Assembly: GCA_963966185.1 (NCBI GenBank)
Contig: CAWZYM010000283.1
Coordinates: 1,646,001-1,710,000 of the forward strand
Length of the DNA stretch: 64,000 nucleotides
Direction of reading: 5' to 3'
Origin: Rhabditoides inermis
Lineage: Eukaryota > Nematoda > Chromadorea > Rhabditida > Rhabditidae
In this document: in pieces, positions 12,233-52,251 of the stretch
Numbering within the stretch: position 1 is the first letter of the stretch
How the letters are laid out: the number at the start of each line of letters is the position of its first letter
The notes under the pieces: generated by a model
The model's input: the letters and a program-made list of their open reading frames with translations, nothing else
Databases searched by the model: none
Told to the model about the DNA's origin: nothing
Program-made: the position numbers and the translations under genes

Positions 12233-12270
12233 TGACCCTTTCGGGCGTTCAAAAATTGCGTATGCCACCA
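12233..12270 (-). pseudogene. U4: 3' part of the U4 gene split by retrotransposon copy 1
   Basis: The last unit of array A stops after the plus-strand CCACCA, inside the U4 gene between the Sm site and the central region. Retrotransposon sequence begins at 12271. The flanking spacer is of type A, whereas the other half of this interrupted gene, at 18499, belongs to type B. Confidence 0.88.
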
Positions 12271-12544
12271 TATAGAAGATTTATCGCAAATCAATGGTTG
12301 GGGGGAAGTATTGATATTGCTGAAATGGGGGGCAGAAATGGTGGTCCGGCTTGTCCCGTCGATGGTCCCTCGGCAAAAGATGCTTGGTCGCAGCGTCCTG
12401 AAGGCGTCGGGGTCGATTGGGGCAGCCGGCTGTATCGCGCTTTGTCAGACAGCCCTCTTGGTCCCTTTGTCGCAGGGAGAGAAACGGCCTTACACGAGTA
12501 CAGTATGAAGCCTCGTCGATTAGAAATCTGTTGATATAGGGTCC

Positions 12545-15500
12545 TTATAGGGCCGCGGCGCGTATGTGCGCGTAGTGTTCCTTGTATTTCGCCACCATAT
12601 TCAGCGCCTTTTCCGGTCTATTCCTTCCATATTTCGGGCAGTAGTTGTCGTTCATCACATGTAGATGGTATATCGCCTTAGAGTATTCGAGTGTCTCGCA
12701 CTGTATCTGTCCTATCAGCGAATTCCAGTCAGTCTTCGGTATTCCGAGTGCAGTCAGTGCTGCATCGTTGCCCTTCCAGTTGTCGCCGAGTGAACTGACC
12801 AAGTATGGGTGCAGAGACACTTTGTATCCCAGTTCTCTATAGGTTTCGGCTATTTCCGTGTATTTCGCAATCTTTTCGGCGGCGGCGCGCTCGAATGACT
12901 CGAGTCCGTTTCCGAATGAAACGCGCACATCCACTATGACCACCTCTTTTTCGCCCTCTCGTTTCAGCACAATGTCCGGTCGCAGACTGCCGCCATTTAT
13001 CGAATCGCGAGTGTCTGTCTCTATCCACGCACTCTCGTTTACCGCACTCTTTTCCGCAGCCGCCACTATCAGATCCTGTATATTGTTATGTCGGTCCATT
13101 ATTCCCATTGTGAGGTGAGCTTTGCACGCGTTGAGCACATGTGGAAGCGTCTCTATCTGGTTCTCGTTGCATGTTGTGCACACGCGGTCCGCCAAAGCGT
13201 TTTGCATCGTGAATCTCGCTCCTTTCAATGGCAGATTATCGAGCAGCGCTCTATGTCTCCAGTCGATCGCACTATCGGTCGCCTGAGGCGATTTGTTTCG
13301 AAGTATGCGCGCATTTCTCGTATCCTGCATGAACATATCAAAGTGTTTGCTGGTCACTGTGTATTCGGTGCTCATTCGTTCGATATTGCACTCGTCCAGT
13401 GCCGCAGCCATCCTTCTCTTTAGTAGGTGCATCGTATTCGAGTCAGTTATCGATTTTTTGCTCGTGGGAGTAGCCTGCATCTCCACTATCAGCTGATCGT
13501 TGTCCCATTTCACTTCGAACAAGTGCAGTTTCCGTCTCATATGTCTCGTTGCCTCGCGGCAGTTTCTCATCATATTAGTCTGTCCACCGTATGTTATTCC
13601 ACGGTATCCAACGTTTTCGTCATTCAGATATCTCGCACACACCGTCTTTTTGTCCATCGTATGCGCTTGTTGCGGTCCAATCCACGCGACAGCTATGTAT
13701 TCCAGAAGGTTCCAGAACACTGTCGATATGTAGGCGTCTTTTGAGCGGAGCAGCTTCATTGTTGTGGTGAAGCAGCCAATGTACATGGTATCTTTCGGGT
13801 GTTGCATGTTGAAGCCCTTGGAGCAGTACAAGTATGGCTTCGACACTCCGCACTTGACGTTCTGTATGTGTGATATGGTACTGGCGAGCGTCTTTTCCAT
13901 CTCGTCTATACTGGCCATAGTGCATCTGTCGTTCATAGCAATGTAGTATAGCCTGGACATGACGAATGTTCGTATCGCATCTCTCAGCTGGTCGCAACTC
14001 AGCGATCCCCTTGCTGCTGCCAGCTTTCGCATATCTGTATTCATCTGTCGCAGCGTCTCCGACTGCTCGTTGATCTCTCGGAAGCCTATATTCACTCCGA
14101 GGTATTTGTAACTATCTCCTTCTCCGAGCACATTTATGCATTCGTTGTACATCTTGGTCTCTCGTTGAACCACTTTTCCCTTCTGTATTATGAGAGCGCC
14201 GCATTTGCGCGGCTTGAACAGCAGGTGTATACTTTTCGCGTCTTCAGCCATTCTATCGAGTTGATATTGGAGGTCTCAGTGGTTTTTGGTTATTATGGCC
14301 ATATCGTCGGCGAAAGCGAGCAGCGAGAAGCCTTGTCCAAGTATCTGCATCGGCCTCACTCTCTTGTTGTGCGCCCGAATGACCATCTCCAGTACTATGT
14401 TGAAGAGGATGGGTGATATGGGGTCTCCCTGCTTCACTCCCGCATCCACCGCTATGCTTCTCGTCTGGTGTGTCTTTGTATTCACTCGCATCGTCGCTCC
14501 ATCGTATAGGTCCTCTATTATGTTTCGGAACTCTTGTGGGAATCCGAATGCCCTGAGGGCTTCGTGTATAGCCTCGTGTGGCACGCTGCCAAACGCATTG
14601 GCAAGGTCCAGCCACGTGACGCATATATCTCCTTTTATCGATTTGACGTGTTGTATAGGTGTGCGGAGAAGCGCAATGTTCTCCAGTGTGCCCTCTCTAT
14701 TCGTGAAGCCCTTCTGGCAGTCACTTATCAGTCCCTTTATCTCGTTCATCCTGTTTGTCAGAAGTGTGGTATATATTTTATAGACGGTATTCATCAGACT
14801 TATCGGCCTCCAGTTTTCTATGTCGAGCTCGTCTCCCTTTTTGTATATGAATGTCACGTTGGTCTCTTTCCAACTGCTCGGGATCCGCTGTTCTCTCATG
14901 CATCTATTGAAGAGCTCAGTCAGGAAGCTGCCATCCGGATCGGCGCTCAATAGGTCGCTATACACTGTCCCGTCTGGTCCGGCCGCCGTATCACGCTTCT
15001 TTTTTATAGTTTTCATCACTTCGTGTCGTCCGAACCTCCTGAGCAGTGAGCCGGAGATGTTCATATGGGGCAGGTTGGCGGCAAGTCGTCGCACCGCATC
15101 GCGGTCACACGGCTGCGCGCCCGTTATCCGTCGGAAGTAGTTCTCGACTTTGTTTATTCCTATCTCGCAGTCTTTCGACTCCTCTCCCAGTATACGTTTC
15201 ACAGCGAGAGCCTTATTCTCGCGATACAGTATCCGGAGCTCCTTGTCCGCTCGGCGAGGTATATCCCTTTTCGCCTGTTTCTTTCTCGGCTGCTTCGGTC
15301 TATCGGCGAGTGACTCGAGTGATGGCAGCTCATCATTCAGTAGTTTCACCGCATCCGCTATCTTATCTTTCCTCATCAGGTATGCGAATTTCACGAACGA
15401 GTCGGAAACGTATTCGATCTGTTCGAAACACGTCGCCTGTCCGAGTTTCTCATGCCAGCTCCCTCTCACAGCGATAGGTTCGGGGTGTATTTGCATGTGT

Positions 15501-18469
15501 TGTAGATCTATGTCCATGAGTCTCGGAATGTGTCGCGTCCTCTCATTATGTATCGTGCTTTTCATCCTTTTTCGCAACTCCTCCAGATCGCCCACTGAGT
15601 GGAAGAGCGGTCGATTATCGATTATTTGCTCCAGGATCATCACAGCGCGCAATCCACAGTTCATCTCATCTCTCTCCTGTTTACTGTATGTATTCGGATC
15701 GGCATACTGTAGCTCTCTGCCGAACAGACGCCTCAGCTTGTCCATCGATCGATTATCGATTGATCGCCGCTGCATCGGATCGTACACGGTAGCTCTATCT
15801 TGTGACTTATCAGCCACTATCATCATCCAGTGTCCCTTCTCGTAATATGGTAGTACGACTTTTGTGTATCTGTCGTTTTGCATGGATGGATGTATGTTCA
15901 TCTCGCTCCCTTTATATTTCCACTCCATCCCGCGCACTATGGCCGGATTGATCACGAACATATCGGTGTTACGGTATTTTGAGAGGAGGTATGCGTGTAT
16001 CGCCTGGTTGCTCAGCCTCGAATTGACTCCCTCAGTATAGTTGAGACAGGCCATCGCAGACTTGGTCGTATCCGTTTGTATCACGTATTCGTCGAATTCG
16101 CCGTTTGTATCGTGAGTGCTCACTGGCTCGCTCACTGCGCGTGACGTCATCTCGTCTCGTGACGTCATATCATTTTGCCGACTAGTATCAGTCTCGCACT
16201 CCATGTATGTCGGCGCGAATTCTATGTTCTTTACAGTATCATCGTCTCCTTCATCGATCATCAGTATATCATCGATCGATATATCGATCGATATATCGAT
16301 CGATTTGTCCTCCGCACTCACTGCGGTATGCGTATTGGGTATATCAGTGTGGGTAGATCGGTCGCCGTCTCTCTCCTCTCGCACACTCACACCAGCTGGC
16401 AGCCAGTGGCTACAGCCTGGCCGCGATATCGAATATTCCTCTCTCTCCCTTTTCGCCGTTGTATTGTGACTCGAGTGAGGACTATCTGCCCTATACTCTC
16501 GTTCTCTCCTTTCTATTTCCGTCGGCGCGCATTCTATGATATTTCCAGTATCATCGTCTCCCTCGTCTATCACCAGTATATCCTCGATCGATATATCGAT
16601 CGACTTGTCCGCCACACTCACGGCGGTTTGCGTATCGGGTATATCAGTGTGGGTAGATCGGTCATCGCCTCTCCCTTCTCGCACGCTCACACCAGCTGGC
16701 AGCCAGTGGCTACAGCCGGGCCGCGAGTTCGAGTATTCCGCGCTATCACTTATCAACGTGGTATTTTGTGTCGGGTGCGGGGTGCTATCTGTCCTCTCGC
16801 TCTCCCTCCTTTCTATTATATTCGAGCCGGCAGCCTTCTCGCTCACGGCACTCTGCGTCTCTGTCGGTGTTATTGATTTATCGATCTCGTTCTGATCTAT
16901 GCGTGCTCTCTTCGCCTGCGCACTCTCAGTCCTCTTTCTCTTTCGCACTCTGCCGTTTCCAACGGGTGTGGGAACGGGGAGCGAGTATGGTATGGGATAT
17001 TGGGTATGTGTCGTCTCATCAGCTGTTTCCTCTATGCGCATTGACTGTTCGTCATCCTCTTGCGATCGCAGTCTCCTTCTTTCATCATTCACGCCTCCTT
17101 TCTCGGTCATTATTCGTTTGCGTATAGCCTCCTGGGTTTCCTCGAACTCTTTCATTTCCGGGTGTGTTTCGAAGGCGTGTTTTCGAGCTCGCCTCAGTAG
17201 ACTGAACTCTTCTTTGCACACTCTGCACGTGTAAACTATGAACATATCGGATTTCGCTCCCACTTCCAGATTCAGTTCGTTTTTCCAGGGGCATGGGTAT
17301 CCTCTTATCAGTGCACGTTGTCTATAGTGTTTGGCTATATCGTTCAGCCTCGCATTCGATAGGTATGAGCTGGTGCACCCTCCGCATTTCAGTTTGCCCG
17401 CAGGCGGCACCATCACGTATATCTTTTTGTTTATCATTGCCGATTCATCTGTTATCAGTTCGTCACCACCTCCGAAGAATAGAGGCTGCTTATTGCGTAT
17501 CGGTCTATGACGTATCTCTTGCAGTATTCTCTGCATCTTCAGAAGATATCGTCGGGTTTGTGCCCTTCTTTTTCTATTCAATCGTTCGCTTTCCCGCCCT
17601 CGTCTATCACGTCTCCATGGAAGGAGATGAAGTAGGAAGAGCAGAATTCGAACAGCACGATTCACACTGTCCGAACTATGAGCGCCTTGAATTCTCGATC
17701 GTAGATGTTCATGTCTCGTATTGCCTGGTTCAGGTAGTGCCTCCTCCTTGAAGACTGTGCTGTTGATGATGCCTATCAGTTCCTCTATCTCGTCCCATCG
17801 TCTTTCTATGTGGCCAGTCGACTTTTGTTTATGATCTTTGGTATATTGCCTGCGGCAGCGTCCCTTCCGGTCGATTTTCGATCTATGAGCTCCGATTCCG
17901 AGGTCAATATCACGTCGACGATCATCTTTCGGTTCTTTATCAGTTCTTTCCGTCATCCGTCTTTGAGTATCGGGCATCCTTCTTTTCCGAGCAGTATAGA
18001 TCTTTCGAGTATCAGTGTAGAGCATCTCTTTGTATCGGGTGTAGGTCTTTCGAGTATCGGTGTAGAGCATCTCCATGTATCGGGTGACGTATATGGGCAT
18101 ATGGGTGAACGCGGCAATATCGATCGGTACCAACGGAGGTGGGGAGAAAGGGGGACGCTGGAGGGGACCAGCAAGACATCCACAATCCACAGCCACAACC
18201 GAATGACACAATGATCGCGGAAACCGAGATTCACAGGGCACGACATCGGACGAATTGTATCGGTTCAAGTAGAGATTGCGCGAGTCTGTCGTGTATACAA
18301 TCGAAGTCGACTGGCCAAAGCTATGGTATTCTATGGAGCGCACAAACGATTGAATGGGGACAACCGAGAGGACGCCAACAAGATATGCATATAGGAGTAT
18401 AGGAGGAAGCACAGTGCGGATAGTGGAGGAGACAAGCTTAGCACCAGGACAACGAGAGAGAAGAGACAT
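12545..18469 (-). pseudogene. Retrotransposon polyprotein (Ulp1-like protease, RT, RLE) with one internal stop
   Basis: The start is the ATG at 18469, 7 nt after the SL1 exon. The frame runs 1975 codons to a stop at 12545. One TGA at 14276-14278 interrupts it just after the RT catalytic FADD (residue about 1385); the equivalent codon in copy 3 is TCG (Ser). Approximate residues: 355-385, Cys-Cys-His-rich segment; 411-435, C2H2 finger (YTCRVC ... HAFETH); 850-950, C48/Ulp1-like protease with His in GHWMMI, Asp in VYDPMQ and Cys in EMNCGLRAV; 1170-1500, reverse transcriptase (FIYKKGD, NWRPISL, GVKQGDPISP, FADDMA); about 1763, CCHC motif (CTTC ... H ... C); 1825-1850, restriction-like endonuclease (SLRPDIVL, then VIVDVRV). 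The N-terminal 350 residues are very basic. An intact donor copy must exist or have existed elsewhere. Confidence 0.88.
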
Positions 18470-18476
18470 CGACGAC

Positions 18477-18498
18477 CTCAAACTTGGGTAATTAAACC
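18477..18498 (-). other. SL1: Complete SL1 spliced-leader exon at the 5' end of copy 1
   Basis: The minus strand reads GGTTTAATTACC followed by CAAGTTTGAG, identical over all 22 nt to the SL1 leader of C. elegans and relatives. It abuts U4 sequence on its 5' side, with no SL1-gene promoter, and continues on its 3' side into GTCGTCG-ATG rather than the GTAAAC intron start of an SL1 RNA gene. It is therefore a spliced exon copied from a trans-spliced transcript, not an SL RNA gene. Confidence 0.95.
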
Positions 18499-18595
18499 TC
18501 AGGGACACCGCGGGCAATTGGGAAAAGTTTTCAACCAGCAATAAACGCACCTCGGCTAGGCCTCATTGGTCACGTTATCGCCTCTGCGCAAAGCT
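18499..18595 (-). pseudogene. U4: 5' part of a type-B U4 gene next to the SL1 junction
   Basis: U4 nucleotides 1 to about 97 (5' end at 18595) run directly into the SL1 exon of copy 1. A transcript from this promoter would be a U4-SL1-retrotransposon chimera, so the U4 promoter could in principle drive the element. Confidence 0.88.
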
Positions 18596-18798
18596 GTCGA
18601 AGTGGTCGAATGATCCGGCCTTACGCTAGAACAGCACGCAACGCGCGCCGGGTTCACAGTCAGACAGTGTGGTGGAGAGTGAAAGAGCGAGAAACGAGAG
18701 TACTGTAAATTATGAAAGTGCTGGTTAAATCCTTAATTGTGACCCTTTCGGGCGTTCAAAAATTGCGTATGCCACCATGTTTCAGGGACACCGCGGGC

Positions 18799-19225
18799 TT
18801 CTTCTTCTTATTCTTCTTCTTTTCCCCGCGGCGTGCGGTCGGGTCTTCATTTTGCCCCGCCGCTGCCGAATGATCGGGTGCATCGACAAGAATCCTTCCC
18901 AAGACATCCATTGAGCCGGCGGGAAGTAGCTCATGTGGAAGCAGTTCAGGCGCGAGGAGATACTATGTGCAAAGCAAAGGAGTCTCCGGCGCTGTCACAT
19001 CAACAATGGTACTCTAATGGTCTATGGAAAGAATATCGATCAAGTATCGGAGAATTATCGATCAAGAATCGTCTTCCGCCACTAACCTCGTCTGCCCAAC
19101 TGTCTTTCCCCGGCGTTAGCCCATAAGATCTTGGCCCACTGTATGCTTCCTATCCTATCATTGTGATTGTGATTGTCATATTCAGCTATAACGATTCCGG
19201 ATAAACACTTGACTTGACTTGACTT
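18799..19225 (+). mobile_element. Short retroelement insertion (SINE or LINE 3' fragment) in a U4 gene
   Basis: A 427-bp non-U4 segment interrupts a type-B U4 gene (pieces 18740-18798 and 19238-19317). It is flanked by a perfect 12-bp target duplication, GACACCGCGGGC (18787-18798 and 19226-19237). The right end is a short tandem ACTTG repeat tail, typical of some non-LTR elements and SINEs; the left end starts with a CTT-rich stretch. No long ORF and no clear family assignment. Its insertion site and duplication differ from those of the NeSL-like copies, so a different machinery made it. Confidence 0.75.
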
Positions 19226-19461
19226 GACACCGCGGGCAATTGGGAAAAGTTTTCAACCAGCAATAAACGCACCTCGGCTAGGCCTCATTGGTCACGTTAT
19301 CGCCTCTGCGCAAAGCTGTCGAAGTGGTCGAATGATCCGGCCTTACGCTAGAACAGCACGCAACGCGCGCCGGGTTCACAGTCAGACAGTGTGGTGGAGA
19401 GTGAAAGAGCGAGAAACGAGAGTACTGTAAATTATGAAAGTGCTGGTTAAATCCTTAATTG

Positions 19462-22046: not shown

Positions 22047-23182
22047 CATAGAAGATTTATCGCAAATCAATGGTTGGGGGGAAGTATTGATATTGCTGAA
22101 ATGGGGGGCAGAAATGGTGGTCCGGCTTGTCCCGTCGATGGTCCCTCGGCAAAAGATGCTTGGTCGCAGCGTCCTGAAGGCGTCGGGGTCGATTGGGGCA
22201 GCCGGCTGTATCGCGCTTTGTCAGACAGCCCTCTTGGTCCCTTTGTCGCAGGGAGAGAAACGGCCTTACACGAGTACAGTATCAAGCCTCGTCGATTAGA
22301 AATCTGTTGATATAGGGTCCTTATAGGGCCGCGGCGCGTATGTGCGCGTAGTGTTCCTTGTATTTCGCCACCATATTCAGCGCCTTTTCCGGTCTATTCC
22401 TTCCATATTTCGGGCAGTAGTTGTCGTTCATCACATGTAGATGGTATATCGCCTTAGAGTATTCGAGTGTCTCGCACTGTATCTGTCCTATCAGCGAATT
22501 CCAGTCAGTCTTCGGTATTCCGAGTGCAGTCAGTGCTGCATCGTTGCCCTTCCAGTTGTCGCCGAGTGAACTGACCAAGTATGGGTGCAGAGACACTTTG
22601 TATCCCAGTTCTCTATACGTTTCGGCTATTCCCGTGTATTTCGCAGTCTTTTCGGCGGCGGCGCGCTCGAATGACTCGAGTCCGTTTCCGAATGAAACGC
22701 GCACATCCACTATGACCACCTCTTTTTCGCCCTCTCGTTTCAGCACAATGTCCGGTCGCAGACTGCCGCCATTTATCGAATCGCGAGTGTCTGTCTCTAT
22801 CCATGCACTCTCGTTTACCGCACTCTTTTCCGCAGCCGCCACTATCAGATCCTGTATATTGTTATGTCGGTCCATTATTCCCATTGTGAGGTGAGCTTTG
22901 CACGCGTTGAGCACATGTGGAAGCGTCTCTATCTGGTTCTCGTTGCATGTTGTGCACACGCGGTCCGCCAAAGCGTTTTGCATCGTGAATCTCGCTCCCT
23001 TCAGTGGCAAATTATCGAGTAGCGCTCTATGTCTCCAGTCGATCGCACTATCGGTCGCCTGAGGCGATTTGTTTCGAAGTATGCGCGCATTTCTCGTATC
23101 CTGCATGAACATATCAAAGTGTTTGCTGGTCACTGTGTATTCGGTGCTCATTCGTTCGATATTGCACTCGTCCAGTGCCGAA
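22047..23182 (-). mobile_element. U4-inserted retrotransposon copy 2, 5' truncated
   Basis: This is 1.14 kb of the element's 3' end, inserted after the same plus-strand CCACCA as copy 1; U4 resumes with GTTTCAGGG at 23183. It keeps the 3' UTR and the last ~280 codons (stop at 22321) with the CCHC motif (CTTC ... H ... C) and the endonuclease motif (SLRPDIVL / VIVDVRV) intact in frame. Truncation lies just upstream of the MSTEYTVTSKHF segment. 5' truncation is the normal outcome of incomplete target-primed reverse transcription. Confidence 0.9.
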
Positions 23183-24870
23183 GTTTCAGGGACACCGCGG
23201 GCAATTGGGAAAAGTTTTCAACCAGCAATAAACGCACCTCGGCTAGGCCTCATTGGTCACGTTATCGCCTCTGCGCAAAGCTGTCGAAGTGGTCGAATGA
23301 TCCGGCCTTACGCTAGAACAGCACGCAACGCGCGCCGGGTTCACAGTCAGACAGTGTGGTGGAGAGTGAAAGAGCGAGAAACGAGAGTACTGTAAATTAT
23401 GAAAGTGCTGGTTAAATCCTTAATTGTGACCCTTTCGGGCGTTCAAAAATTGCGTATGCCACCATGTTTCAGGGACACCGCGGGCAATTGGGAAAAGTTT
23501 TCAACCAGCAATAAACGCACCTCGGCTAGGCCTCATTGGTCACGTTATCGCCTCTGCGCAAAGCTGTCGAAGTGGTCGAATGATCCGGCCTTACGCTAGA
23601 ACAGCACGCAACGCGCGCCGGGTTCACAGTCAGACAGTGTGGTGGAGAGTGAAAGAGCGAGAAACGAGAGTACTGTAAATTATGAAAGTGCTGGTTAAAT
23701 CCTTAATTGTGACCCTTTCGGGCGTTCAAAAATTGCGTATGCCACCATGTTTCAGGGACACCGCGGGCAATTGGGAAAAGTTTTCAACCAGCAATAAACG
23801 CACCTCGGCTAGGCCTCATTGGTCACGTTATCGCCTCTGCGCAAAGCTGTCGAAGTGGTCGAATGATCCGGCCTTACGCTAGAACAGCACGCAACGCGCG
23901 CCGGGTTCACAGTCAGACAGTGTGGTGGAGAGTGAAAGAGCGAGAAACGAGAGTACTGTAAATTATGAAAGTGCTGGTTAAATCCTTAATTGTGACCCTT
24001 TCGGGCGTTCAAAAATTGCGTATGCCACCATGTTTCAGGGACACCGCGGGCAATTGGGAAAAGTTTTCAACCAGCAATAAACGCACCTCGGCTAGGCCTC
24101 ATTGGTCACGTTATCGCCTCTGCGCAAAGCTGTCGAAATGGTCGAATGATCCGGCCTTACGCTAGAACAGCACGCAACGCGCGCCGGGTTCACAGTCAGA
24201 CAGTGTGGTGGAGAGTGAAAGAGCGAGAAACGAGAGTACTGTAAATTATGAAAGTGCTGGTTAAATCCTTAATTGTGACCCTTTCGGGCGTTCAAAAATT
24301 GCGTATGCCACCATGTTTCAGGGACACCGCGGGCAATTGGGAAAAGTTTTCAACCAGCAATAAACGCACCTCGGCTAGGCCTCATTGGTCACGTTATCGC
24401 CTCTGCGCAAAGCTGTCGAAGTGGTCGAATGATCCGGCCTTACGCTAGAACAGCACGCAACGCGCGCCGGGTTCACAGTCAGACAGTGTGGTGGAGAGTG
24501 AAAGAGCGAGAAACGAGAGTACTGTAAATTATGAAAGTGCTGGTTAAATCCTTAATTGTGACCCTTTCGGGCGTTCAAAAATTGCGTATGCCACCACATA
24601 GAAGATTTATCGCAAATCAATGGTTGGGGGGAAGTATTGATATTGCTGAAATGGGGGGCAGAAATGGTGGTCCGGCTTGTCCCGTCGATGGTCCCTCGGC
24701 AAAAGATGCTTGGTCGCAGCGTCCTGAAGGCGTCGGGGTCGATTGGGGCAGCCGGCTGTATCGCGCTTTGTCAGACAGCCCTCTTGGTCCCTTTGTCGCA
24801 GGGAGAGAAACGGCCTTACACGAGTACAGTATCAAGCCTCGTCGATTAGAAATCTGTTGATATAGGGTCC

Positions 24871-26966
24871 TTATAGGGCCGCGGCGCGTATGTGCGCGTA
24901 GTGTTCCTTGTATTTCGCCACCATATTCAGCGCCTTTTCCGGTCTATTCCTTCCATATTTCGGGCAGTAGTTGTCGTTCATCACATGTAGATGGTATATC
25001 GCCTTCGAGTATTCGAGCGTCTCGCACTGTATCTGTCCTATCAGCGAATTCCAGTCAGTCTTCGGTATTCCGAGTGCAGTCAGTGCTGCATCGTTGCCCT
25101 TCCAGTTGTCGCCGAGTGAACTGACCAAGTATGGGTGCAGAGACACTTTGTATCCCAGTTCTCTATAGGTTTCGGCTATTTCCGTGTATTTCGCAATCTT
25201 TTCGGCGGCGGCGCGCTCGAATGACTCGAGTCCGTTTCCGAATGAAACGCGCACATCCACTATGACCACCTCTTTTTCGCCCTCTCGTTTCAGCACAATG
25301 TCCGGTCGCAGACTGCCGCCATTTATCGAATCGCGAGTGTCTGTCTCTATCCACGCACTCTCGTTTACTGCACTCTTTTCCGCAGCCGCCACTATCAGAT
25401 CCTGTATATTGTTATGTCGGTCCATCATTCCCATTGTGAGGTGAGCTTTGCACGCGTTGAGCACATGTGGAAGCGTCTCTATCTGGTTCTCGTTGCATGT
25501 TGTGCACACGCGGTCCGCCAAAGCGTTTTGCATCGTGAATCTCGCTCCCTTCAGTGGCAGATTATCGAGTAGCGCTCTATGTCTCCAGTCGATCGCACTA
25601 TCGGTCGCCTGAGGCGATTTGTTTCGAAGTATGCGCGCATTTCTCGTATCCTGCATGAACATATCAAAGTGTTTGCTGGTCACTGTGTATTCGGTGCTCA
25701 TTCGTTCGATATTGCACTCGTCCAGTGCCGCAGCCATCCTTCTCTTCAGTAGGTGCATCGTATTCGAGTCAGTTATCGATTTTTTTTCTCGTGGGAGTAG
25801 CCTGCATCTCCACTATCAGCTGATCGTTGTCCCATTTCACTTCGAACAAGTGCAGCTTCCGTCTCATATGTCTCGTTGCCTCGCGGCAGTTTCTCATCAT
25901 ATTGGTCTGTCCACCGTATGTTATTCCACGGTATCCGACGTTTTCGTCATTCAGATATCTCGCACACACCGTCTTTTTATCCAATGTATGCGCTTGTTGC
26001 GGTCCAATCCACGCGACAGCTATGTATTCCAGAAGGTTCCAGAACACTGTCGATATGTAGGTGTCTTTTGAGCGGAGCAGCTTCATTGTTGTGGTGAAGC
26101 AGCCAATGTACATGGTATCTTTCGGGTGTTGCATGTTGAAGCCCTTGGAGCAGTACAAGTATGGCTTCGACACTCCGCACTTGACGTTCTGTATATGTGA
26201 TATGGTACTGGCGAGCGTCTTTTCCATCTCGTCTATACTGGCCATAGTGCATCTGTCGTTCATAGCAATGTAGTATAGCCTGGACATGACGAATGTTCGT
26301 ATCGCATCTCTCAGCTGGTCGCAACTCAGAGATCCCCTCGCTGCTGCCAGCTTTCGCATATCCGTATTCATCTGTCGCAGCGTCTCCGACTGCTCGTTGA
26401 TCTCTCGGAAGCCTATATTCACTCCGAGGTATTTGTAGCTATCTCCTTCTCCGAGCACGTTTATGCACTCGTTGTACATTTTGGTCTCTCGTTGAATCAC
26501 TTTTCCCTTCTGTATTATGAGTGCGCCGCATTTGCGCGGCTTGAACAGCAGGTGTATACTTTTCGCGTCTTCAGCCATTTTATCGAGTTGATATTGGAGG
26601 TCCGAGTGGTTTTTGGTTATTATGGCCATATCGTCTGCGAAAGCGAGCAGCGAGAAGCCTTGTCCGAGTATCTGCATCGGCCTCACTCTCTTGTTGTGCG
26701 CCCGGATGACCATCTCCAGCACTATGTTGAAGAGGATGGGTGATATGGGGTCTCCCTGCTTCACTCCCGCATCCACCGCTATGATTCTCGTCTGGTGTGT
26801 CTTTGTGTTCACTCGCATCGTCGCTCCATCGTATAGGTCCTCTATTATGTTTCGGAACTCTTGTGGGAATCCGAATGCCCTGAGGGCTTCGTGTATAGCC
26901 TCGTGTGGCACGCTGCCAAACGCATTGGCAAGGTCCAGCCACGTGACGCATAAATCTCCTTTTTTT
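24871..26966 (-). pseudogene. RT-endonuclease part of retrotransposon copy 3
   Basis: The RT core (CVTWLDLANAFG, GVKQGDPISP, FADDMAII) is in one frame without the stop seen in copy 1. That frame is broken near 25778 by a longer T run (a frameshift), after which the CCHC and PD-D endonuclease region continues in another frame to a stop at 24871. It is useful for comparison with copy 1 but not coding as a whole. Confidence 0.8.
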
Positions 26967-27642
26967 GAAGAGAGAGACGGCGACCGATTTACCCCCACTG
27001 ATATACCCGATACGCATACCGCAGTGAGTGCGGAGGACAAATCGATCGATATATAGATCGAGGATAGACCGGTGATCGATGAAAAAGACGATGATACTGA
27101 AAATAACATAGAATTCGCGCCGACATACATGGAGTGCGAGACTGATAGTCAACCAAATGATATGACGTCACGAGACGAGATGACGTCACGCGCATAGTGC
27201 GAACCAGTGAGCACTCACGATACAAACGGCGAATTCGACGAATACGTGATACAAACTGATACGACCAAGTCTGCGATGACCTGTCTCAACTATACTGAGG
27301 GAGTCAATTCGAGGCTGAGCAACCAGGCGATACACGCATACCTCCTCTCCAAATACCGCAACACCGATATGTTCGTGATCAATCCGGCCATAGTGCGCGG
27401 AATGGAGTGGAAATATAAAGGGAGCGAGATGAACATACATCTATCCATGCAAAACGACAGATACACAAAAGTCGTACTACCATATTACGAGAAGGGACAC
27501 TGGATGATGATACTGGCTGATAAGTCACATGATAGAGCTACCGTATACGATCCGATGCAGCGGCGATCAATCGATAATCGATCGATGGACAAGCTGAGGC
27601 GTCTGTTCGGCAGAGAGCTACAGTATGCCGATCCGAATACAT
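26967..27642 (+). pseudogene. Inverted Ulp1-protease segment of retrotransposon copy 3
   Basis: The plus strand encodes the part of the polyprotein from the acidic linker (about 26990) through the protease His (GHWMMI) and Asp (VYDPMQ) to GRELQYADPNT. It stops before the catalytic Cys motif. It is a fragment of copy 3 in reverse orientation with its own stops (for example near 27053 and 27196). Confidence 0.85.
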
Positions 27643-27686
27643 TGTGACCCTTTCGGGCGTTCAAAAATTGCGTATGCCACCATGTT
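27643..27686 (-). pseudogene. U4: U4 3' stub between copies 3 and 4
   Basis: ATTGTGACCC through CCACCATGTTT is the 3' end of a U4 unit, including the Sm site. It is bounded on both sides by retrotransposon sequence, so the array ends here. Confidence 0.8.
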
Positions 27687-41205: not shown

Positions 41206-41275
41206 CAGATCGGAGCAACTTTTTAGAAGAAGTCAACAAATAGGGTAGATTTTGAAGAGAGATATCGATCCGGAA

Positions 41276-42841
<1,566 letters not shown>

Positions 42842-43034
42842 CATAGTAAATATTAGTCTCAATGGGGGAAACAACTCTATCAAACAAGTTTTTTTTATGA
42901 GACAGTCTCGCCGATTTCTGTTTGATAGACATGTCAGCCTTCGATCATCGTAGTGACGTAGTGCCACTCGCAACGAATGTCGTCGAGCTACTTCACTATG
43001 AGACGATCAACCAAATGTGTTAACAAAACAAAAC

Positions 43035-47571: not shown

Positions 47572-50500
47572 TACATTGCCTTCTGCTCACATGGTAGTTG
47601 ATGTAGAACCCTCCGAAGACGAGCATGGGGAGCACCAGCATGGGCATGTATGTGATGGCGATGCCCTCGTCTCCGAATGCGCACGCGCCCGCGTACGCTG
47701 AACAAAAAAAACATATATGACAGCCTAGCACCGGCGCACGCTGCAGACAGAACATTTCTATGTCTGTTTTTTTTCTGTCATTTTTCAAACAGAGCAGAAA
47801 CTAAATTTTGTTTTAGTTTTAGAATTTTAGAGTGCTCCGCTCACCGACAGACACAGCGCACGCGACCAGAGTGACGTTGACGAGACAGAAGACTGCCACG
47901 CGGGCGAACGTCGGCGTCATGCCTGTATGGGGGATACTGAACTGTATAGGGGTACAGTACTCATACACAGTACTCATTCAACTACAGTACTCATCTCTTC
48001 ACTTACCGGTCATGAAGAACATGATGATGCTGTAGACGAGCGGAAGAAAGAAGAACTGGGGCAGCTGCAAAAGTAAGTACAGTAATCTACAGTACCCTGC
48101 AGTACCGTACTACATTACAAACACAATACCTCGGCAGTGGTCTTGGCGACAAAGTAACAGCCAGAGTCGTAGATGTTCGCCTTGATTTCTCGCATAATGA
48201 TCGGAAGTTCGGAGGTGATCACCTAGAATAAAGTACTACGCATTCCAAATTCCACTGTTCGAATAAAAAACTACGATTCCTATTGCCACCTACGTTGACA
48301 GATGGATAGATGAACAGGAAATTCATGTCCCTCGCGCAGTTGTACAGCATACCCTCGATGTTCTGCACCTGAAGCCGAGATATTCAAGTACAGTAACTCC
48401 TATTTTACAATAAACCGTACCTGATTTCCGCTAACCTCCGTCTGCCAGTTGACCACGCCAATAATGAGAGCAGTGATCTGAAAGTATCGTATCGCAAATT
48501 CATAGTACAGTAACCCATTATATTATACCGTAATCATCTCAAAGTGTAGTTTTCAAAGTACCGTAGTCCAATGTACCGTACTCACCACGACCTGCAGGGT
48601 CTTGACCTTGAGTAGGAGGGGATCGCGGACGGTGGTGATGAGAGAGCGTTTGAAGATCACAGACAGCTGGCGCAGCCACGAGGCCTTGCTGAAACGTATA
48701 CATATAGAGGGAAGAAAAGAAGATCAGTTAAAGGAAACCAAAATATTCGTCATATCACTGACATTATCGATGAAATTAAAAAGCTGGAAAGATCAAAACT
48801 GTACATATTTTATCGATCATTCAATAAACATAATCTGAACAGTTTAATTGATTTTATAACAGACGATATTGCATTTTCATCGCTAGATAAACACGATAGG
48901 TACAAGGTGTTCGCTGTTTCTTGTAAATACTTCCAGAAGCTACAATCTCAACATTTTGATGGAAAAAGAGAATTTCACAATCTTAAACTACAGTTTTATG
49001 GACAATTCATGGATAATGTGAACGTTAGTAAAATAATAAATCGTGAAATAAATAGGCATAATAAGTTTGATGTCCCTGATCTGCTTCAAACTAGAATAAT
49101 CTATAATTAAGACTTACCGATTACCAGTTTCATATGTAATTACAATAAAGTTTTAAAAAACATAACTGAACTGGAGATAAATGAAATATTGAAGTCGTCT
49201 TGTAGATGTGAAACATTGTACTCTCAATTTTGTGACAGTCACCATAAACATGTTGTTACTGGAAATTTGAAAATTATACATAATCAAGAACTACGGGATT
49301 TAATGTTAAAAGGCGCTAAGTACAGAATACAGAAAAATGTCAATATTGAACAATGTAGGTCAGAAATTGTTGATTCGGTTAAGTCACACATGTTATTTCT
49401 AAAAAAATAAATACATGATTTCAAATGATTCACTAGAACTCGCATTTACAAATCGATTATTAATCGATTTATTAATCGAGAAACGACTGAATGCCGAATT
49501 TATGTTGCCATCTATTAGTTACGACTATTACCACCAACTCAAACAAATACAAAAAGAATTTGTGATAACGTGTATTGATAAAGCTTCAGGAAACTTTTCT
49601 TTGATCTGTAAAAAATTATACTTGACCATCTTGAATAACGAACTTGGAGTAGGATCTTCAATTCCAAATCAAACATACACCCCCTACACTGCAGAAACAG
49701 AAGACTCTATCATAAACCGACACGTAACCGCAACTAAATATAGCTGCAAACAAGAAATTGACAGCAATAATGCTGTGTTACCTAAAATTTATGCAATTCC
49801 AAAAATGCACAAGAATCCCATAAAATTCAGATTCATCACTGGTGCCTTCACTAGTAGTCTCAAACCACTTTCTATCGAACTACGCAAGGTGTTATCGTTC
49901 TTAAAAACACATTTCATGAACATTTGTAAAGCAACAGAAGCTAGGACGAAAACTAATTATTACTGGTCTATTAGTAATAGTTTACAAGTAACACAGGCTT
50001 TAAATAGTGTTAATAATTGGGAAAACAAATGTCTACATTCAGCGGATTTTAGCAGTCTGTTTACCAACTTGCCCCATTCTGTGGTAATTGATAACGTTAA
50101 TAAAGTAATCGATATTTGTTTTAAAAATAGCAAAAAAGATTACATTATCATGGGATACAAAAAACTTTACTATAAATCAGACTCGTCCAATATCGGTACT
50201 AGTCATTATTATCAATCACATGATGTTAAGTTCATGTTGGAATACGTTTTACGCAATAGTTATGCTAAATATGGAGGTTGCATCTTTAAACAAGTATCTG
50301 GTATTCCACAGGGAAACAATGCTTCTCCTCTTATAGCTGACCTCACACTTCTAATGATGGAACACTCTTATATCAAAACACATGAAACTCAGTTCAAATA
50401 CGGAGTGAGAGGCTTCCGTTACGTCGACGACCTGTTGATAATCTATCCTAAAGATAGCCTCGTATTAGATCATATCAGGCAGATGTATCACCCTTCACTT

Positions 50501-52251
50501 TCACTAGATCAAACCAATTTAACAGACAGAGAAGTGGTTTACTTGGATTTAAAAATAAAACTCACAAACTCTGGTTATACCACAGAACTGTACAATAAGA
50601 CGGATGATTACAGCTTCTCTATAATGAGATATCCCCAATATACATCCAGTCTAAGACGGAGTATTGGATTGAACGTATTACACGGTGAAGTACTACGTAT
50701 TTATCGTAGCTGTAGTCTCGTAGCAGACTTCAGATTGCGAATACATGATCTTATTGAAACGTACATTAGTAATGGCTATCCCACACATATCATAGAAAAC
50801 CAACTCACGAAATCTATCCTAGGTTCTAAACTGATAATTCAGAAATATAATATAACCAGCAGATTAAGATATCTGCATATTATCAGATAAAAACATTCCA
50901 TTTATCATTTGACCTAACTAACCTGTTTGTTGTCTAAACCCTCTAATTATGACACACTCTCTCATTCTACGTCTCCCGCCCGTGACCGCGCGATCTACAC
51001 TTTCTACGCATGCTCAGTGTCACTCAGATAAAAACACTTTAGTGTCATTCTTTGACCTCACTAATCTGTTGTTGTCTACACCCTCTAATTATGGGCGAAT
51101 AGGAAATCACACCATCACACCACCACACCACCACACCATCACACCATCATACCACTCACACAACCCACACCTCCACTACTGTACACCACCACACCACCCA
51201 CACCACATATAGGAAATCACACCACCACACCACCACACCACCACACCACCACACCACTCACACAACCCACACCACCACACCACCACACCATCAACATAAT
51301 CAGTCGTAGAGAATAGTGTGGTTGTGTTAAGTTGTGGTGGTGTGCTTGTGTGATGGTGTGGTGGTGTGATGGTGTGGTGGTGTGGTGGTGTGGTGGTGTG
51401 ATGGTGTGAACTCCATATTGCCCTAATTATGACACACTCTCTCGTATACTCTCCGTCTCCCGCCCGTGACCGTTCGATTTGCACCCTCCACGCTTGCTCA
51501 GTGTCACTCCTCTATCATTCTCTCCCATGTGCGACCTAGCAGGCAGGCGGCAGGCAGCAGACATCCACGGACAGCGACTACTTCCTTCTTCGAACATGAG
51601 TTTATTGGTTTATTGGTTTACTTATTGATTCATTGATCAACTCATCTATAGGTAGACTTGTTCATTATTATGTAATAAAGCGTTTTGCATGCATGCTAAC
51701 CCCACTGTAGAAAATGTCGTATTGTGAGCTACTAACAGCTGATTGTTCATCTCTGATGAAGCCCGGCAATCAGTTAGCACAACTGTCAGGTGATAGGGCA
51801 GAAACAGTGTGTGCTATGTAGGTTGTGCATGCTTTGTTTGTTTGCTTTGCTTTATAATAGTGGATACGTTTCACTCTTGGATACGTTTCACGCATATTTA
51901 ACTTGAGAGAGTATGGATGCGCAATACAACGAGAAAATCGAAGTTGAATGGAAACCACAAAATGGCAATACCAATGTTCCACCCACCCCGCACGATCGCG
52001 CTTGTTCTTCTTCTCACTCTCAACAGACGCCTTCATCTGCAAATTCAAAGTACAGTAACCCAGAGCAACGCAGCCCGACTGATTACAGTACCCCTGCCGT
52101 ACCTTAACAAACTCGTCGTGAATCTCGAGATTGGCGCGGCCGATGGTGGCGTTGTAGTGAGCGATCACAGTCTGCAATAGGGGAAACTAGAGGGGGGATA
52201 GATTAGGGCGCTGGTAAGGTGTTCTTCCCACATCTTCGCATAACGACAAGC

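Follow-up and report, generated by a model that had tools for sequence, protein, structure and literature searches.

The window, the whole stretch of 64,000 nucleotides analysed here (C283:1646001-1710000 of the Rhabditoides inermis genome assembly, 172.6 Mb in 599 contigs), carries a tandem array of U4 snRNA genes with 58 Rfam matches, which is broken up by copies of a retroelement. One of these copies interrupts a U4 gene and starts with the spliced leader SL1 (Table 1); the upstream U4 sequence ends in CCCTGA directly at the leader, and the leader is followed by GTCGTCGATG, the element joint of the U4 family. The end points of this copy are accurate to ±1-2 nt, owing to letters common to the element and U4, and the Rfam match to the interrupted gene spans 18467-18595. 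No second match to SL1 with up to 3 mismatches was found in the window. The reverse transcriptase (RT) region of this copy contains a single in-frame stop. The 3' joint in U4 is identical in all three window copies, with TGGTGGC following it, and two of them lack the 5' end; by eye, the inverted 5' part of the copy at 24597-27644 resembles a twin-priming product.

Table 1. Features of the SL1-headed element copy, the U4 gene it interrupts and the two further copies in the window
Feature	Position	Strand	Remarks
SL1 leader GGTTTAATTACCCAAGTTTGAG, perfect, 22 nt, 5' terminus of the element	18477-18498	-	exact match, 0 mismatches
Spacer GTCGTCG, 7 nt, from SL1 to ATG	18470-18476	-	
ATG opening the long frame of the element	18467-18469	-	
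Element frame up to the in-frame stop at 14276-14278, beginning with the ATG at 18469	14279-18469	-	
RVT_1 within the element frame	about 14282-14842	-	Pfam
Peptidase_C48 (Ulp1-type protease), weak	15536-15859	-	E 0.0016, 18.7 bits, below curated cut-off of 20.7
Element frame beyond the stop, same frame	12545-14251	-	C-terminal part (~12725-13186) matches R2 endonuclease end, E 7.5e-9
Whole element copy including SL1, 6.2 kb	12271-18498	-	
Interrupted U4 gene, 5' part	18499-18595	-	Rfam
Interrupted U4 gene, 3' part, from TGGTGGC on	12235-12270	-	
Second copy in U4, 5'-truncated, without SL1	22047-23182	-	
Third copy in U4, 5'-truncated, without SL1	24597-27644	-	last ~0.7 kb (~26968-27644) inverted

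The preliminary description of the locus had reported a full 22-nt SL1, 7 nt and an ATG at the start of the element, with SL1 abutting U4 without the promoter or intron of an SL1 gene, and this reading proved correct. The match is exact, with 0 mismatches; the SL1 genes of this genome read SL1-GTAATTTC, and the sequence following SL1 in the window element differs from this intron; the AACCCGG box common to SL1 genes and U4 genes at -58/-59 was not found upstream of the window element's SL1, where the best match had 3 mismatches. The interval assigned to the feature, 18466-18510, needs trimming, since the feature proper occupies 18467-18498 and the interval runs 12 nt into U4 at one end and 1 nt into the coding sequence at the other.

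Other features of the window are a short insertion in a U4 unit (18784-19238) with a (TTGAC)n tail and GACACCGCGGGC repeated on both sides, by eye like a SINE with a target-site duplication; a tract of about 1.6 kb that consists almost entirely of a tetranucleotide repeat, with frames open on both strands (41252-42856); and a 491-codon frame with a weak reverse transcriptase match (49415-50887, E 5.7e-7), which looks Penelope-like.

Compared with solved structures, the RT of the window element matched R2 proteins best (E 5.5e-40), with LINE-1 behind (E 1.6e-24). A restriction-like endonuclease follows the RT: in the C-terminal part, residues 356-509 align with R2 proteins at E 7.5e-9, and Pfam at E 0.001 gave no match in this region. 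Judged by its RT and endonuclease matches, the element is a non-LTR retrotransposon of the R2 group, and it fits the NeSL neighbourhood of this group, a placement made from sequence matches rather than a tree; protein searches named no nematode relative. U4 genes harbour five of the seven 5'-complete copies of the family and all three window copies, and insertion into SL1 genes, the criterion of NeSL-1, was not found. The U4 element is therefore not an SL1-gene-targeting NeSL-1 element, and the proposed tie to an SL1-targeting clade calls for caution, the target being U4.

The likeness to NeSL-1, Utopia and the NeSL clade lies in the R2-type RT and endonuclease, insertion into multicopy RNA genes and a target-site deletion (PMC4640811, PMC3636483). 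Deletion at the target site is described for NeSL-clade elements (PMC3636483); here, intact U4 reads CCCTGAAACATGG, and in the two copies in which both joints were read, the window copy lacks AACA and the copy L032 lacks AAACA. Nematode NeSL members carry an Ulp1-like protease, and the U4 element has a weak match of this kind at 18.7 bits, below the cut-off of 20.7. Differences were noted as well: the reported targets of the clade are SL genes, U2, tRNA and others, whereas here they are U4 and, for a related family, U5; and a leader at the 5' end, present here, is not mentioned in the excerpts describing the clade (PMC4640811, PMC3636483). No earlier report of a U4-targeting LINE was found in the open-licence literature searched.

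A genome search with the 5' 179 nt of the element returned 13 places, seven belonging to the U4 family and six to the related family. As anticipated for full-length copies, all seven U4-family copies matched by their 5' end begin in SL1, at nt 1 in six and at nt 3 in one, with a single mismatch within SL1 in one of them (L033). They are spread over six contigs. Five have U4 upstream, its side of the joint ending in CCCTGA, CCCTG, CCCT or the like, and two have other upstream flanks; for one of the latter (L033), the 3' flank (L106) is also non-U4. The 3' ends of L035 and L037 were not found in the stretches examined. Since the SL1 starts include copies flanked by sequences other than U4, SL1 is part of the copied RNA and not of the target. 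Separate insertions begin precisely with the complete leader exon, and neither the promoter nor the intron of an SL gene accompanies it. Among the copies matched by their 5' end, none is outron-bearing or unspliced, and no acceptor of the family's own was seen.

The related family, named NeSL-2 here, inserts into U5 genes; local alignment of its protein with that of the U4 family scored 317, and none of 50 shuffles exceeded 62. A search with the NeSL-2 5' end found 16 places, 13 of NeSL-2 and three of the U4 family. The 13 NeSL-2 places start at SL1 nt 1 (eight), nt 2 (one) or nt 3 (two), that is, within nt 1-3 in 11 of 13; two of the eight nt-1 starts have a common flank and may be one duplicated insertion. 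The two remaining places are a copy truncated at nt 70 and L131, which begins exactly at AG. At the loci L131-L135 (contigs C40, C291, C151 and C253), NeSL-2 lies behind U5-like sequence, after the AAAGAATT of its loop-I stem, and Rfam at E up to 0.1 recognised U5 in four of the five NeSL-2 loci read, one at gathering score. Further NeSL-2 copies have unrelated upstream flanks.

At L131, SL1 is replaced by the 22-nt GGTTTATAACCCAGTACTCAAG, located between AAAGAATTCC and GTTGCTGATG and differing from SL1 at 11 of 22 positions. This leader has all three features used in PMC1657053 to recognise SL2-like leaders, namely gaps of 4 and 7 nt and an AAG end. The exact 22-mer did not occur in the open-licence literature searched, and a C. 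elegans-like SL2 pattern, from which its spacing differs, matched 0 places in the genome. About 9 kb away, behind a like U5 unit, L132 has the same joint but carries SL1 there, beginning at nt 2; its body is identical to that of L131 over the 29 nt compared, and the U5 joint is offset by 1-3 nt, which makes L131 and L132 look like two separate insertions. Between the U4 family and NeSL-2, SL1 is identical at 22 of 22 positions, whereas 50-110 nt downstream the agreement falls to 9/30 and 9/30, and the leader is therefore either renewed or selected. The exchange of SL1 for an SL2-like sequence indicates that the leader is acquired by splicing rather than handed down from a single capture. Operon transcripts are resolved by SL2-like leaders in the rhabditine species surveyed in PMC1657053, a role that would suit the release of an element from a co-transcript.

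Exact SL1 occurs at 368 places genome-wide, of which the first 100 were listed individually; 58 of the 368 continue with sequences other than GTA (8, 21 and 29), leaving 310 with GTA by subtraction, SL1 genes among them. On contig C109 (L015-L022), a 1442-bp tandem unit combines U2 snRNA, 5S rRNA and SL1 RNA genes, and on contig C41 a boxed SL1 gene (L007) diverges from SL1 RNA right after SL1-GTAA, by insertion or break.

SL1 starts were also found on two LINE families, B and C, with a frame for an APE-type endonuclease, identified for family B by Pfam in one locus (L047) and for family C by the look of the translation only. Family B shows seven kinds of SL1-body joint across 11 loci. Family C starts at SL1 nt 1-4 in 10 of 17 places and at nt 35 in the other seven; the latter, with differing upstream sequence, were considered as an outron form and rejected, the five of seven that were read being all alike; we interpret all seven as a single 5'-truncated insertion that was amplified within a cluster. 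Starts at nt 2-4 in several loci fit reverse transcription ending near the cap. At three places in two families SL1 is followed by TTTGAG, which would fit the product expected if a new leader were spliced to the AAG within an older SL1, comparable to the relics of dinoflagellates (PMC12014239); two of the three (L047 and L104) have a common relic, which shows that a 5' structure can be carried over from one insertion to another. Another SL1-starting LINE (L045, contig C57) has as its upstream flank an inverted repeat of its own first ~22 nt, a fold-back. Among LTR elements, SL1 lies mid-LTR at L052-L054, L058, L059, L062-L066, L068, L069, L071 and L072, roughly 450-640 nt from the LTR start; L055 has partial SL1s in tandem. 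L060 and L061 compared over 1.5 kb are of low identity (1229 identities, 213 mismatches, 86 gap positions).

Acceptors at the joint were found in two other settings. An SL1-tagged short repeat of about 130 nt occupies at least 42 places (40 of 166 candidates scored), at least 17 of which start at SL1 nt 1-3 and at least 24 exactly at AG plus body, with one fragment. In 20 of 20 AG-plus-body repeats read, out of the 24, an outron ending in GATTGTAG directly precedes the joint. SL1 or an outron stands before a CTGATGA...GAAAC motif in short repeats at L001, L005, L010, L027, L028, L030, L070 and L073, and likewise at L075-L083 and L111-L130. By its letters this motif is reminiscent of a hammerhead core; as an Rfam hammerhead search up to E 0.1 in 12 short-repeat loci gave no match, we do not claim one. 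The second case is an intronless, SL1-tagged copy of a KH-domain gene with an uninterrupted 321-codon frame (L056 and L057, which have the same flank and represent one locus or two haplotypes). Its parent on C39 was matched in five pieces with 87-91% identity, two of them with one stop each. SL1 joins the copy exactly where the parent reads AAATTGCAG, with TTGCAG at the joint, and the copy lacks two introns of the parent in the aligned part; from this joint and the missing introns it follows that an RNA both trans-spliced and cis-spliced was reverse transcribed here with its leader. The AG acceptor that the preliminary description had looked to as a mark of splicing thus exists in the short repeat family and the KH parent, though not in the U4 family.

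These observations bear on how the leader reached the U4 element. The window copy is very probably the reverse transcript of an element RNA that had been trans-spliced to SL1 and was copied through to nt 1. The same proposal in the preliminary description, of a trans-spliced element RNA copied to its 5' end, gains support from the seven of seven SL1 starts, the acceptors and the SL2-like swap.

An unlikely alternative is that SL1 was captured once, for example by an ancestor sitting in an SL1 gene behind the exon, and has since been inherited as element DNA, retained for its function as start site or internal promoter. In Ascaris, the SL sequence reportedly belongs to the promoter elements that lie inside the SL RNA gene; the literature search found no paper on this. 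Inheritance would agree with SL1 on every copy with the U4-family 5' end and an outron on none, with the relic common to L047 and L104, with the GT that follows SL1 in most SL1-tagged families as it does in SL1 genes, and with the LTR elements, where SL1 lies mid-LTR, alike in both LTRs, and is handed on by the LTR cycle. Trypanosomatid LINEs, moreover, use a promoter at their 5' end to which TBP and SNAP50 bind (PMC8190864). A single capture is, however, hard to reconcile with the SL2-like leader that L131 carries at the same joint, with AG acceptors at the joint in the short repeat family and the KH host gene, or with A instead of G after SL1 in two U4-family copies. It is the SL2-like leader at this joint in NeSL-2 that makes unlikely the origin from an SL1 gene which had been named as a refutation. 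The promoter evidence also speaks against capture, as the -58 box is absent from element-borne SL1s: among 58 distinct exact-SL1 sites with sufficient flank, it is exact at -58 in L007, L012 and L015 and has one mismatch in L090, all in SL1-gene context; L050 looks like an SL1 gene downstream, yet lacks the box, and the nearest box among the remaining sites has one mismatch at -49 (L005). SL1-gene flanks or introns were looked for at element-borne SL1s, and none were found. SL1 as a complete promoter of the SL-gene type was rejected, there being no box at -58. As an internal start site, or internal-only promoter, SL1 could help to keep the leader, but this leaves the SL2-like copy and the AG at the joint unexplained.

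Less probable still is a template switch, in which the reverse transcriptase, on reaching the end of the element RNA, would have moved on to an SL RNA. LINE reverse transcriptases do make chimaeras with small RNAs, but such a jump should also have brought in the intron half of the SL RNA, whereas all seven copies carry the exon only, ending at the splice site, and the same joint recurs in separate insertions. Although the U4 array is repetitive, a chance match or misassembly can be rejected as having next to no probability, given 0 SL1 matches in 100 dinucleotide shuffles, 0 places for the reversed pattern against 368 for SL1 genome-wide, and the recurrence of this joint in seven copies that are spread over six contigs and include two whose upstream flank is not U4.

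Reverse transcription of a trans-spliced RNA thus being the preferred explanation, a cycle could be proposed for the element. R2 is co-transcribed with 28S rRNA. An inserted copy of the U4 element would likewise be transcribed together with the snRNA gene or from flanking DNA; trans-splicing would cut the element RNA loose from the co-transcript and supply it with a capped leader; and target-primed reverse transcription of the SL1-headed RNA, in the style of the R2 group, would yield the copy at 12271-18498. New copies may be re-expressed either by re-splicing at the AG of the old leader or with SL1 as start site. Since SL1 itself ends in AG, the old leader can serve as an acceptor, and it would then be renewed in every cycle. 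The usual nematode acceptor is TTTTCAG, to which the TTTGAG end of SL1 is a poor fit, and this counts against re-splicing. More tentatively, and with somewhat less than even confidence, we propose that SL trans-splicing could be the regular 5'-end maturation of promoterless LINEs in snRNA genes (U4, U5), the co-transcript from the host snRNA promoter being freed and capped by SL1 or SL2 as in an operon, and the copied leader serving as the next acceptor.

R2 and L1Tc reportedly carry self-cleaving ribozymes at their 5' end. Such ribozymes, like the trans-splicing proposed here, release from a host transcript an element that lacks its own promoter or is co-transcribed; the difference is that in the U4 element, where only 7 nt separate the leader from the ATG, trans-splicing would take the place of the ribozyme. 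In Brugia malayi, 120 integral SL1s were counted, 60 of them within 1 kb of PAO elements, and the authors inferred that leaders had been added to expressed PAO elements and integrated along with them (PMC7181701). The likeness lies in SL1 outside SL1 genes beside retroelements, and the genome studied here also has SL1-bearing LTRs; PAO elements, however, are LTR elements, whereas here LINEs have SL1 as their exact 5' terminus, together with an SL2-like exchange and acceptor controls (PMC7181701). Dinoflagellate retrogenes contain SL relics, in which an AG inside the relic leader was used as the splice point for the next leader (PMC12014239). There, as here, trans-spliced RNA was copied into the genome, but the relics described are in host genes only, whereas here both a host gene and the retrotransposon itself are involved (PMC12014239). 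Cer1 of C. elegans is likewise a nematode retrotransposon with an SL1-spliced mRNA; its full-length 8-kb RNA is not trans-spliced, in contrast to the copied full-length RNA here (PMC3315495). Apart from the Brugia paper, no SL1-tagged LINEs or retrogenes in nematodes were recognised in the open-licence literature searched, nor was an earlier leader-tagged, leader-swapping snRNA-gene LINE found there; the precedents are SL1 beside PAO LTR elements in Brugia and SL relics in dinoflagellate retrogenes, as far as the excerpts of these papers go (PMC7181701, PMC12014239).

In its 5' leader, the element preserves a genomic trace of the very RNA from which it was copied. This matters for the transcription of NeSL-type elements, on which PMC3636483, in the excerpt concerned, states that no data were known. 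Leader-tagged starts suggest a simple genomic assay that would report, in trans-splicing animals, on both full-length reverse transcription and the choice of acceptor. If trans-splicing is indeed the regular 5'-end maturation of these LINEs, a parasite of spliceosome genes would be perpetuated by the spliceosome.
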